DNA from: Gracilimonas mengyeensis
GTDB taxonomy: Bacteria; Bacteroidota; Rhodothermia; Balneolales; Balneolaceae
DNA: 64,000 nucleotides
NCBI RefSeq assembly: GCF_900182705.1
Contig: NZ_FXTP01000011.1
Location: forward strand, 1 to 64,000
Direction: 5' to 3'
Shown: piece after piece, positions 32,917 through 36,834 of the stretch
Layout: every line of letters starts with the position of its first letter
Position numbering within the stretch: position 1 is the first letter of the stretch
Translations under genes and position numbers: made by a program
Notes under the pieces: generated by a model
Seen by the model: only the letters and a program-made list of their open reading frames with translations
Told to the model about the DNA's origin: nothing
Databases searched by the model: none

Positions 32917-34101
32917 ATGAATGAAATTGATGCTTTAGCCAATAAACTGGCACCTCACTACTCTCACTTTGATGTAGCCAACCGGCTGCTTTTCACCGGT
33001 CACTCTCACCAGGCCTGGCCGGATGTGGCCCGGGAAGGGCAGCTGGAATATTTTGACGTTTGCGCCCGTGATGTGGATAACAAATGGGAGGCTTCTTTCG
33101 AAAAGACGGAAATTCTGCGCAATTACTTACGTGATTTCTATGATGACCCTGATGGACTGTACTGCCGCGAAGAAAGTACCCATGTGCTTTTTGTAAGCTG
33201 GATGAGCAGCCTGGATCTGAAGAACAAGCCCAAAATTGTAACCACCGACGGTGAGTTTCATTCACTCTTCCGCCAGCTTAAGCGAATGGAAGAGGAAGGC
33301 CTTGAGATGGCAGAAGTTCCGGTTCATCCCGATGAAAGTTTTGGCGAGCGCATCATCGATGAGATGGATGAACGCACTTCAGCCGTGATGCTGTCCCGGG
33401 TTTATTTTCAAAGCAGTTTCATCAATACACATCTTACCGAAATTGCAGCAGCAGCCCGGGATAAAGGAATTCCGGTTATGATTGACGATTATCATGGCAC
33501 CAATGTGGTCCCTCTTTCCATCCGTGAGGCCGGACTGGAAGATTGCTTCATCCTGATTGGCGGCTACAAATACCTGCAATGGGGGGAAGCCAACTGCTTT
33601 TTGCGATTTCCCAAAAACTGCAATTACCGCCCTGCCATCACCGGCTGGTTTGCCGCCTTTAACTCTTTGGATAAGCCCCGAACCGGTGGCCCGGTAGAAT
33701 ATGATGATGGAAACCAGCGCTTTGCAAGTGGCACCTATGATCCCTCCTCTCAGTTTCGTGCCGCCAAAGTAGTTGAGTTTTTCCGAGAAGAAGGACTCAC
33801 TCCCCAAGTTTTAAGAAAACAGTACAAAGCACAGGTTGGCTTATTGCGGGAACGATTTTTATCCAAAAAATTTGATCAGTCAGTGATTCGGCTGACCCAT
33901 GAAGAACCGCTGGAGCAAAACGGTGGATTTCTTTCACTGACTTCTCCAAAAGCCCGAGACATCCGTGCCAAGCTTATGGATAACGGTGTTTATACCGATG
34001 CACGAGGTGAAATTTTGCGCTTTGGTCCCGCTCCCTATATCATCACGACACAAATTGAACATGCGATGGATAAGCTGGAGAAGGTGGTTAGGGAGATTTA
34101 A
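32917..34101 (+). CDS. Kynureninase-like PLP enzyme (class V aminotransferase fold)
   Basis: The 394-residue enzyme has the PLP-binding lysine in GGYKYLQWGE (about 220-229), preceded by GIPVMIDDYHGT, the layout of kynureninase. Kynureninase cleaves kynurenine or 3-hydroxykynurenine to anthranilate or 3-hydroxyanthranilate. It follows tryptophan dioxygenase on the same strand, so the pair probably works in tryptophan breakdown. The gap of 83 bp contains a dispersed repeat word. A formamidase and monooxygenase are not in the window. Confidence 0.78.
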   Translation: MNEIDALANKLAPHYSHFDVANRLLFTGHSHQAWPDVAREGQLEYFDVCARDVDNKWEASFEKTEILRNYLRDFYDDPDGLYCREESTHVLFVSWMSSLDLKNKPKIVTTDGEFHSLFRQLKRMEEEGLEMAEVPVHPDESFGERIIDEMDERTSAVMLSRVYFQSSFINTHLTEIAAAARDKGIPVMIDDYHGTNVVPLSIREAGLEDCFILIGGYKYLQWGEANCFLRFPKNCNYRPAITGWFAAFNSLDKPRTGGPVEYDDGNQRFASGTYDPSSQFRAAKVVEFFREEGLTPQVLRKQYKAQVGLLRERFLSKKFDQSVIRLTHEEPLEQNGGFLSLTSPKARDIRAKLMDNGVYTDARGEILRFGPAPYIITTQIEHAMDKLEKVVREI

Positions 34102-34135
34102 CGCCTTGGCAATTGGGTACTTTGCTTCCACCATT

Positions 34136-34353
34136 GCACATCCCTCTGGATGAAAGCCAGGGCTTTCATCCAGTCTCCCTTCAAAGGGAGAATTATTGAA
34201 TAGTACAGTAAAGATCGTTCAAGACTCAAGTGTGCAAACTTACATTTTCTGTTAATTCAGATGCTAAAATATACATCTGAACTCAACAAAAAGAATTCCC
34301 TCTTCGAAGAGGGACCGGAAAATCAGCCTGCTGATTTTGCAGGGGGATGTGCG
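34136..34353. repeat. Structured repeat A flanking the DUF559 gene
   Basis: A 218-bp element, direct repeat of 34780-34996. It begins GCACATCCC and ends GGGATGTGC. Hairpins: 13-bp stem CTGGATGAAAGCC/GGCTTTCATCCAG (34146-34173), CTCCCTT/AAGGGAG, palindrome TCCCTCTTC/GAAGAGGGA (34297-34314), and AAAATCAGC/GCTGATTTT (34319-34338). Similarity to copy B continues past the end to the stop codon of the DUF559 gene. Confidence 0.85.
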
Positions 34354-34361
34354 ATGACGAC

Positions 34362-34742
34362 TTAGGACTTCCCTTCCTCCAAACGTCTCACAAAATCTTC
34401 AAGATACGTCAGCACATCATGCATATTTCTTTTGACGTCTATATCATCAACCCGTGCAAAAATAACTCCTAAAGCTTCAATTCTTTCTTGGCGTGCCTGA
34501 TCATCTTTAAACTTCTCTGGGTTATCGTGAGTTACACCGTCAATCTCAATGGCCATCATCAATTCATGGCAATAAAAATCGACGATATAATCCAAAACAG
34601 GAACCTGCCGATGAAACTCTACTCCAAGGGCTTTTCCTTTGATCTGATCCCAAAGTAATACTTCACTGAGGGTGCTGTTCTTCCGTAACTCCCGGGCTAG
34701 CTTCTTTAGCTTTCGGTTATATGGAAGAATTTTGTTTGGCAT
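34362..34742 (-). CDS. DUF559 family endonuclease-like protein (PD-(D/E)XK/Vsr fold)
   Basis: The 126-residue protein matches DUF559 throughout: ARELRKNSTLSEVLLWDQIK at about 15-34, GVEFHRQVPVLDYIVDFYC, then MAIEIDGVTH (acidic-x-acidic core of a PD-(D/E)XK nuclease) and a C-terminal DDIDV strand. DUF559 proteins share the fold of Vsr and other PD-(D/E)XK endonucleases; the activity of most is untested. No DNA methyltransferase is next to it, so it is unlikely to be a Vsr repair partner. It occupies 381 of the 426 bp between two direct repeats, which suggests a self-contained mobile or selfish unit. Confidence 0.82.
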   Translation of the reverse strand: MPNKILPYNRKLKKLARELRKNSTLSEVLLWDQIKGKALGVEFHRQVPVLDYIVDFYCHELMMAIEIDGVTHDNPEKFKDDQARQERIEALGVIFARVDDIDVKRNMHDVLTYLEDFVRRLEEGKS

Positions 34743-34779
34743 AATGGCCTATTCTAAAGATCGAATTGTTTCCAGTATC

Positions 34780-34996
34780 GCACATCCCTCTGAATGAAAG
34801 CCAGGGCTTTCATTCAGTCTCCCTTCAAAGGGAGAATTATTGAATAGTACATTACAGGTAGTGCATGGCTCAAGAGTGATAACTTACATTTTCTTTTAAA
34901 TCCGATGCCAAAATAAAATTGGAGTGTACCAAAGAAAAATTCCCTCATCGAAGAGGGACCGGAAAATCAGCTCGCTGATTTTGCAGGGGGATGTGC
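34780..34996. repeat. Structured repeat B flanking the DUF559 gene
   Basis: A 217-bp copy in the same orientation as repeat A, with the same four hairpins. In the first stem the A-copy pair G34149-C34170 is A34793-T34814 here, a compensatory change that keeps the stem. Its left end TCGCACATCCC forms an 11-bp inverted repeat with GGGATGTGCGA at the right end of copy A, so the gene is bracketed by inverted ends. Confidence 0.85.
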
Positions 34997-35038
34997 GATG
35001 GCGACTTAAGAATTAGAACCAGACACTTAACACCCCAA

Positions 35039-35857
35039 TCACTCAAAAGAACCCACAAGCTCGTCTTCCTCAAAGCACTCCTGTATTTCTTTCTTCAGAA
35101 ACGATACAAGAGATTCATTTCCGGCTATAATCCGCTGACCAAACAGCCAATCATTGCCACCCTTCCAATCAGTTACAACTCCACCGGCTTCCTGGATAAT
35201 GAGCGTTCCGGCAGCTACATCCCAAGGGCTCAATCCGTACTCGTAGAAACCTTCAAAACGGCCGCAAGCCACGTTACATAAATCCCATGCAGCCGTTCCC
35301 GGACGACGTACCCCGTGTGTCTTTTCCATCATCCGGCGGAAAAGCTTCAGGTAGTTATCCACCAGGTTCAGGTTGGAATACGGGAAACCGGTCCCAATCA
35401 ATGAAGCAGCAGGGTCGTTAGTTGGGGAGATGGAAATTGATTCGCCGTTCAGCCATGCGCCCTCTCCTTTTACAGCCGTAAACCACTCGTCATGAGCCAC
35501 TTCCAGCACCAGGGCAACCTTAGCTTCCTGCTCATCCCAAAGTGCAATGGAAACACAATAAAAAGGAAAGTTATGGGCGAAGTTAGTAGTGCCATCAATG
35601 GGATCAATAATCCAGACACGGCCTTCCGGCAATGCTATTTTCTTTTGGGATTCCTCGGCGAGGATTTCATCCTCTGGAAAAGTCCCTTTGATAATTTCAA
35701 TAATCTTTTTTTCCGCCGACACATCCGCATCCGTTACAAGGTCATTTTTACCTTTTAGCTTGATGTCGAAGGAAGCTTTGCTGGCGTATTCCCGAATGAT
35801 GGTTGCTGCTTCCCGGGCTGCTTCTTTTGCCGTTTCTAATTCCCTTGTGTAGTTCAA
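35039..35857 (-). CDS. Inositol monophosphatase family protein
   Basis: The 272-residue protein has the Mg-dependent phosphatase motifs LAEES (about 67-71), DPIDGTTNFAH (about 85-95) and the late WDVAAGTLIIQEAGG (about 210-224). Family members dephosphorylate inositol phosphates, 3'-phosphoadenosine phosphates or related small molecules; the substrate is not fixed by these motifs. SuhB-type is most likely. The C-terminal acid-rich tail (EEDELVGSFE) is unusual. It is isolated, downstream of a repeat region on both sides. Confidence 0.88.
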   Translation of the reverse strand: MNYTRELETAKEAAREAATIIREYASKASFDIKLKGKNDLVTDADVSAEKKIIEIIKGTFPEDEILAEESQKKIALPEGRVWIIDPIDGTTNFAHNFPFYCVSIALWDEQEAKVALVLEVAHDEWFTAVKGEGAWLNGESISISPTNDPAASLIGTGFPYSNLNLVDNYLKLFRRMMEKTHGVRRPGTAAWDLCNVACGRFEGFYEYGLSPWDVAAGTLIIQEAGGVVTDWKGGNDWLFGQRIIAGNESLVSFLKKEIQECFEEDELVGSFE

Positions 35858-36263
35858 TCGTCTGTATTTAGTTCAAAATTTGTTGCTGAAAGATATCTAC
35901 CTCTGCAGTTCATTTCCAATGGGTTTGGTAGTAAGGGAGAATTGAAGATTGAAAGATGGAAAATTGAAGATTTAACAAGGACCTATTACCGAACAATATT
36001 GAGGCAATCTTTAACTTTAGTTGGACAGTAAGATGAAATTAGTGCCAAAGATTATGCTAAGGAAGATAACGCGGATGACATAGAAAGAAGAGGTCATCAC
36101 AGGAAACTTTATAACAACTGTTTTAAATCCAATAGTGTCCAAAGTATTTTCAGAAATTTTCATAATACCAATAATTCTGCCTTAGAAAAGATTTTTAAAA
36201 TAAAAACTGAAACAACCCCATGATATGTTAACTGGATTAGTAAGATGAATACAGGCCAGTAAA
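35858..36263. other. Intergenic stretch, no gene recognised
   Basis: The 5' half carries low-complexity wording (GAAGATTGAAAGATGGAAAA) common in dispersed repeats of this group. An open run after the ATG at about 36031 is interrupted by stop codons and matches nothing I know. I see no functional feature. Confidence 0.4.
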
Positions 36264-36446
36264 CTATCCCTCTTCGGAGAGGGTATGCGTAATGAGCTTG
36301 CTCATGAAGCGAGGGAGAGGGAAGCCAAGGGCTCGGACCGTGCTATAAAACACGAAAAAGCCACTGGCCACTACCCTCTCTGGTTTTTACGCAGCACAGG
36401 GCTGCGTAAAAACCGCTCTCTCCAAAGAGACACAGGATATGGGGCG
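36264..36446. repeat. Palindromic element C, gene-less relative of the DUF559 flanks
   Basis: CCCTCT/AGAGGG (36268-36283), ATGAGCttGCTCAT (36292-36305) and a 14-bp stem GGTTTTTACGCAGC/GCTGCGTAAAAACC with a 5-nt loop (36382-36414), followed by CTCTCTCCAAAGAGA. The order of hairpins and spacing around them matches the pair of half-elements that bracket the DUF559 gene, but sequence identity is low and there is no gene inside. Confidence 0.55.
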
Positions 36447-36504
36447 ATGAAAAAAAAGGTGTGAATAATTCTGACGTTTAGGACGCTATTACTTTAGAAC
36501 CTCT

Positions 36505-36834
36505 AACTAAACCACTCTGCACTGAAAGCGCAGAGGTTTGGGTTGGGACTGAAAGTCCCGGTCTCCCCACCATCCCGGTCATCCATCCCGAATAACTCGG
36601 GACGATGGACCTTGCATTTTGCGGAGCATCTTCAACCAATTTCCTGAACTACATTTCCAGTGGCTCATGCGCTATTGCCACTGGTTGGTTGGCAATCATT
36701 TCTTGGCTAAGGTTCTTCAGCGGTAGCTTCAGAATGACCCTATGATCTTAGCCGTTAGATTTTTTCCGAATACTAAAGTGCTGCACTAAATGTGCAGGGT
36801 TTTAAACCCCGGAATGGGACCAATGAAAGTAATC
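36505..36834. repeat. Structured intergenic repeat, family 1 copy 2
   Basis: The 330-bp second copy of the element at 16072-16385. The first hairpin reads CTCTGCACT/AGCGCAGAG: a C-G pair of copy 1 is T-A here, a compensatory change. It contains an extra TCCCGAataaCTCGGGA hairpin in the centre, where copy 1 has a shorter variant. It ends close to the next repeats and the lipoprotein gene's terminator. Confidence 0.8.

Follow-up and report, generated by a model that had tools for sequence, protein, structure and literature searches.

The window, by which we mean the whole 64,000-nucleotide stretch of Gracilimonas mengyeensis DNA that was analysed, is C11:1-64000 of a 4.67 Mb genome (genome G000). 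It carries a DUF559 gene of 126 aa on the minus strand at 34362..34742, confirming the open reading frame reported in the initial annotation by a match to DUF559 (PF04480) of 78.9 bits against a gathering threshold of 20.6 (E 3e-22). The gene lies between two palindromic units to which no strand is assigned. Unit A (34132..34356), defined by repeat search and DNA fold, consists of two inverted half-units with their tails outward and a variable spacer of ~100 bp, the whole closed by a terminal stem. Unit B (34776..35000), defined by repeat search, lies upstream of the gene and repeats unit A in direct orientation. The two bracketing direct repeats of ~218 bp that had been described earlier thus exist as described, at 34136-34353 and 34780-34997 with 86% identity across 218 bp, and repeat A does extend to the end of the gene, stopping only a few bases from its stop codon. 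Half-unit A-left (34138..34192, minus strand) is made of hairpin TCTCCCTTTGAAGGGAGA, hairpin CTGGATGAAAGCC/GGCTTTCATCCAG and tail AGAGGGATGT, and half-unit A-right (34296..34350, plus strand) has its tail GGGGGATGTGCGATG directed to the 3' end of the gene. Half-unit B-left (34782..34836, minus strand) directs its tail to the 5' end of the gene, and the tail of half-unit B-right (34940..34994, plus strand) points outward.

Units were defined by local alignment together with a simple hairpin rule. Every unit has a terminal stem of ~13 bp (CCATTGCACATCCC / GGGATGTGCGATG) enclosing four hairpins, and the four hairpins per repeat noticed at the outset are seen in the DNA fold of the window unit, which reaches -49.7 kcal/mol (z = -7.5; 0 of 200 shuffles as good). 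Within a half-unit the order is a C-rich hairpin, a second hairpin and the tail CAGGGGGATGTGCGATG, of type GGGATGT/GGGGTGT, and two such half-units inverted around a variable spacer make one unit. Because the tails are directed outward within the unit, the two half-units beside the gene face it. The 11-bp inverted repeat that had been ascribed to the gene-facing ends corresponds to this half-unit tail; it is present, but it is not peculiar to those ends since both ends of every unit have it. The minimal form, found in Flavobacteriaceae, reads GTCCCCTTGAGGGGAC-TTTA-GGGGTGT, then the gene, then the mirror order.

The compensatory change from G-C to A-T in the longest stem, on which an earlier argument for selection on the folded form was based, is real and agrees with covariation among half-units. 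Across the 28 distinct half-units of the genome, double-sided changes occur at 11 of the 18 stem pairs and number 115 compared with 39.6 in shuffles, while 95.4% of cells are paired compared with 73.8% in shuffles. The stem covariation score is 0.563 (0.166 in shuffles), and shifting the partner by one column abolishes the signal. The stems of the half-units are under selection.

The encoded protein is, as judged from its predicted structure, a small Vsr/EDxHD-type PD-(D/E)XK nuclease. An AlphaFold2 model (pLDDT 91.5) has as its nearest solved fold 3hrl, a putative and uncharacterised nuclease-like protein of Neisseria (Z 15.3), followed by the homing endonuclease I-Bth0305I (3r3p; Z 12.3, rmsd 2.7, 95 residues aligned) and Vsr (Z 9.8). 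These matches bear out the PD-(D/E)XK/Vsr-like fold that had been stated for DUF559. In an alignment of 26 sequences, residues E27, D55, E66, D68 and G69 are invariant and H72 is nearly so, a pattern of the nuclease type E-x-D-G-x-x-H. The gene is under purifying selection: its comparison with the paralogue on C7 gives a dN of 0.10 and a dS of 0.98. Among named relatives of the protein, the closest (73%) comes from Gracilimonas amylolytica.

The genome contains seven DUF559 genes, and all seven lie between palindromic units in direct order. The expectation that each DUF559 gene would be flanked by the same hairpins was correct as to bracketing (7/7) but not as to a single repeat, as the unit sequence family differs among the DUF559 gene lineages of the genome. 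One of the genes, that on C10, has been cut short by a copy of the unit end belonging to it. The family of units seen in the window comprises ~20-22 units genome-wide with 2 cognate genes, and most of its scattered members have conserved ends (positions 1-60 and 159-218) and a divergent middle. The initial annotation had tied the repeat to DUF559 genes and would have counted against itself a repeat occurring mostly apart from them; taken literally, the latter is what the genome holds, with ~18 of ~22 units lacking a gene. This gene-less majority does not by itself refute a REPIN-like system, because most repeats in such systems are non-autonomous. Two further repeats were noted in the window. 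A unit of like design at 36229-36490, with hairpin GTCTCTTTGGAGAGAG, a second hairpin and tail AGAGAGGGTAGTGG, has ~8 copies in the genome and ends that resemble the unit family of the C10 DUF559 gene. At 36504-36829 there is a repeat of ~320 bp that occurs >20 times in the genome and is matched only in part in congeners; it lacks a gene and shows no obvious link to DUF559.

Bracketing of DUF559 genes by family-specific palindromic units is systematic, in this genome, in the family and in other phyla. When G000 and other Balneolaceae were considered together, 38 of 48 DUF559 genes had direct repeats on both sides within 600 bp, compared with 9 of 546 random positions of equal geometry (Fisher P = 5e-42); at least one of the 10 genes scored negative (L095) does carry units. 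Beyond the family we took 80 named relatives, chosen by two peptide patterns. These were mostly from Flavobacteriaceae, with others from Calditrichota, Candidatus Scalindua, other Bacteroidota and one contig labelled Saccharibacteria, and by the manner of their choice they over-represent one subfamily. Among 56 stand-alone short-ORF relatives, C-rich palindromes within ≤250 bp were found on either side in 93% and on both sides in 54%, and controls gave 2.7% and 0/751, respectively; the controls were random positions within the same loci and not matched intergenic regions. A second Bacteroidota sample, chosen by Pfam, eases the subfamily bias but is small, and its 15 usable stand-alone genes gave 93% on either side and 73% on both. 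Chance hairpins are ruled out by the random-position controls. No unit could be recognised beside ~1/10 to 1/5 of the stand-alone DUF559 genes. DUF559 matches were present in 84 of 198 sampled Bacteroidota genomes, and the family is rare, nearly absent, on plasmids and phages. For the genome-wide profile search the closer alignment A2 was used, as the broad alignment A1 lacked a conserved stretch. Larger architectures also occur: in L432 (1-2526) DUF559 forms a nuclease domain in the interior of a Type ISP restriction-modification protein, and large fusions of this sort had no flanking palindromes in the few cases testable.

Other observations link the repeats to the gene that they enclose. 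Of 131 nearest tails, 109 are directed at the gene (P = 5e-15). Unit similarity increases with protein identity over 28 non-orthologous loci (Spearman 0.26; 0 of 2000 permutations as high), and strong unit matches are confined to >50% protein identity. A joint change of repeat lineage and DUF559 gene lineage is supported by these sequence comparisons. They bear on the idea that the palindromes are independent of DUF559 and that the genes merely land in them, as insertion sequences do in REPs. Units do far outnumber genes, two genomes (G008 and G020) have units, matching Rfam whalefall-1, with no DUF559 gene, and known insertion sequences such as ISPpu9 are reported to insert into REPs (PMC8450116). 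However, each gene lineage has its own unit family, unit similarity drops with protein identity and the tails are oriented to the gene. Furthermore, the five Y1_Tnp matches of the genome are located elsewhere, and its RAYT loci bear different palindromes with no DUF559-type units, which also led us to reject a RAYT-driven origin of the units. We regard the landing-site explanation as unlikely, though it is the rival that survives best.

The history of the loci combines long residence with occasional change. Several to many DUF559 loci have orthologues in other species and genera, indicating that the genes are mostly inherited vertically. At the window site, beside a kynureninase gene, 9 of 9 congeners lack the element. 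This does not provide the clean empty site that had been hoped for in relatives: the kynureninase side is kept in all 9 congeners but inositol monophosphatase is located elsewhere in them, so that the site is a breakpoint, and we rejected it as an empty site. The synteny breakpoint (kynureninase / inositol monophosphatase) coincides with the element at window ~34100-35040, and recA is next after kynureninase in several congeners.

Lineage-specific insertions and losses are seen, as are rearrangements at the units. A unit-gene-unit cassette of 900 bp is 86% identical between G001 and G005/G007 and has different flanks. Between the close genomes G001 and G007 (~94-95% identical), breakpoints fall within units, and no unit insertion was found in the 295 kb that align between them, besides the rearranged A/B loci. 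Other differences between this pair resemble loss, local deletion or replacement. A solo unit in G001 (C1:1092893) was rejected as an insertion, G007 having an 80-bp internal deletion between the hairpin arms. At the L100 locus, G001 has a gene with four units that G007 lacks, and since the element is present in outgroup genera the difference probably represents loss in G007. In the genomes compared, we found no recent insertion that could be paired with an intact empty site and a target duplication, and transposition itself is therefore something we infer.

In 14 loci from Winogradskyella or related genomes (L275, L279, L281, L284, L287-L289, L292, L296, L301, L307, L308, L325 and L340), a translated palindrome (TPLKSPQGDN) joins DUF559 in frame with threonine dehydratase. 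Of the sampled genomes, 141 had an IlvA match that was close enough, and all of these lack the DUF559 part. In the fusions inspected, no obvious start codon for IlvA alone lies near the junction, which suggests that the inserted gene may be needed by the host enzyme. Similarly, L285 and L293, from Muricauda-type genomes, have DUF559 in frame with RnpA, the RNase P protein subunit, by way of a translated palindrome. The Winogradskyella-like genome G262 has one degenerate palindrome where its relatives have the gene between two. Such a site, together with the closest characterised fold being that of the homing endonuclease I-Bth0305I, would fit homing, in which the nuclease cuts at unit-bearing or unit-less alleles and gene conversion copies the gene-unit cassette. 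We consider this improbable, as homing leaves unexplained why units are dispersed over unrelated intergenic sites, and the G262 site resembles a later loss and not a pre-insertion state because IlvA there has no obvious start codon. Gene-less relatives are thus found at both the L100 locus and the ilvA site, and the direction at these resembles loss.

Both gene-facing half-units of the window match the Rfam family whalefall-1 (RF01762), with 36.1 bits for B-left and 33.7 bits for A-right (E ~1e-7), just under the gathering cut-off of 37. Elsewhere the scores rise to 51.6 bits in other units of G000 and to 75.4 bits in relatives. Many whalefall-1 matches have a DUF559 gene within a distance of tens to hundreds of bases (for example on G031:C3, G021:C13, G006:C7, G001:C1 and G007:C1), and DUF559 is present in 14 of 16 genomes with whalefall-1 matches compared with 17 of 42 without (P = 0.0025). 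Whalefall-1 was known from environmental sequence only and was rated by its authors as certainly RNA (PMC2864571), and Rfam classes it as sRNA. It shares two hairpins and a tail with the half-unit, and differs in having been described as a noncoding RNA, whereas here the hairpins and tail form the terminal module of DUF559-flanking DNA repeats. Given the half-unit matches to RF01762, whalefall-1 is probably the end of DUF559-associated units; its simplest reading would be a DNA repeat end, which may be transcribed as well. Least probable of all, in our view, is that DUF559 acts locally, as a gene for a toxin, restriction or defence, and that the hairpins beside it serve as terminators or regulatory RNA and take no part in dispersal: T-runs follow the hairpins of some minus-strand half-units, whalefall-1 has the RNA status just given and DUF559 serves as a domain in the Type ISP enzyme, but family-specific doublets of ~220 bp in ~20 copies with conserved tails are unlike terminators, the window gene has no methylase or antitoxin partner beside it, and PADLOC matches are weak, the best (E 6.5e-8) being to a restriction enzyme model.

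Taken together, we favor the reading that a REPIN-like repeat system is present, that the locus is its gene-bearing form and that the DUF559 nuclease acts on its own repeats; we think this somewhat more likely right than wrong. The nuclease would recognise the hairpin-plus-tail that belongs to its repeat family, probably in an extruded or single-stranded state while DNA is replicated or repaired, and would nick or cut at the tail. Host repair or strand transfer would then copy units to new intergenic sites at a low rate as the gene itself remained mostly at its inherited locus, and recombination between the flanking units could remove the gene or rearrange the chromosome. The recognition, cleavage and copying of units by the nuclease are what we infer. 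Of the REP-like single-gene element proposed in the initial annotation, the family-specific bracketing and the scattered gene-less copies hold up; the cutting or moving of palindromes by the nuclease and present-day jumping of gene plus repeats stay proposals. A wider proposal seems to us about evenly balanced between true and false. In it, palindromic repeats of a large and so far undescribed class, present in Bacteroidota, Calditrichota, Planctomycetota and others, would be dispersed by stand-alone DUF559 proteins; this would be a mobile system of REPIN-like kind, with a Vsr-type PD-(D/E)XK nuclease in the place of the HUH transposase, and its repeat ends would have been misfiled as whalefall-1 RNA.

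The data suggest that DUF559 and its repeats form an undescribed repeat-spreading system that is similar to REPIN/RAYT (REPtron, TnpA-REP) and uses an unrelated enzyme. Both systems have tailed palindromic half-units in inverted pairs around a diverse spacer, and a single protein gene flanked by units with many gene-less copies. The RAYT gene is mostly vertical and nearly absent from plasmids (PMC8049555, PMC8266576), and for RAYT/REPIN a gene passed on mostly vertically has been described together with a repeat population that changes slowly (PMC8049555); the DUF559 system behaves alike in these respects. In contrast to the HUH tyrosine transposase there, the enzyme here is a PD-(D/E)XK Vsr-like nuclease; the unit ends and tails are not of the REP GTAG/CGTC types, and the window family has two hairpins per half-unit. 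Lacking the defining HUH Y1 transposase between its repeats, the system is not a REPIN/RAYT member, and the analogy drawn earlier with RAYT and REP sequences is apt for layout and population behaviour but not for the enzyme.

Other known systems share fewer features. I-Bth0305I/EDxHD homing endonucleases and Vsr have the same fold and a catalytic domain of comparable size, but DUF559 is without an intron, intein or mismatch-repair context and is linked to dispersed palindromes. MITEs and Correia-type elements are likewise short, dispersed, gene-less units with terminal inverted repeats; here, however, no parent DDE transposase was found, the linked gene encodes a PD-(D/E)XK nuclease and no target-site duplication was seen. 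Integron cassettes resemble the locus in placing a gene between two imperfect palindromes (attC) in direct order, whereas DUF559 units are dispersed singly and enclose one gene family every time. Inspection of the window unit ends revealed no GTTRRRY/RYYYAAC core, and attC was rejected.

We found no publication linking DUF559 to repeats in titles, abstracts and targeted literature searches. To our knowledge, there is no known mobile element in which repeat dispersal is driven by a single-domain PD-(D/E)XK nuclease. If the favored reading is true, such a nuclease can drive repeat dispersal, and REPIN-like repeat populations would appear to have arisen at least 2 times with unrelated enzymes. 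It also proposes, for the widespread but functionally uncharacterised domain DUF559, a concrete context and a substrate that can be tested, and offers a DNA-based explanation for the orphan Rfam RNA whalefall-1. A comparator system exists in the same genus: at ~379945-380645 of G001:C1 (L219-L220) a RAYT-like gene lies between REP palindromes and is cleanly absent in G007, which keeps one palindrome at that site.
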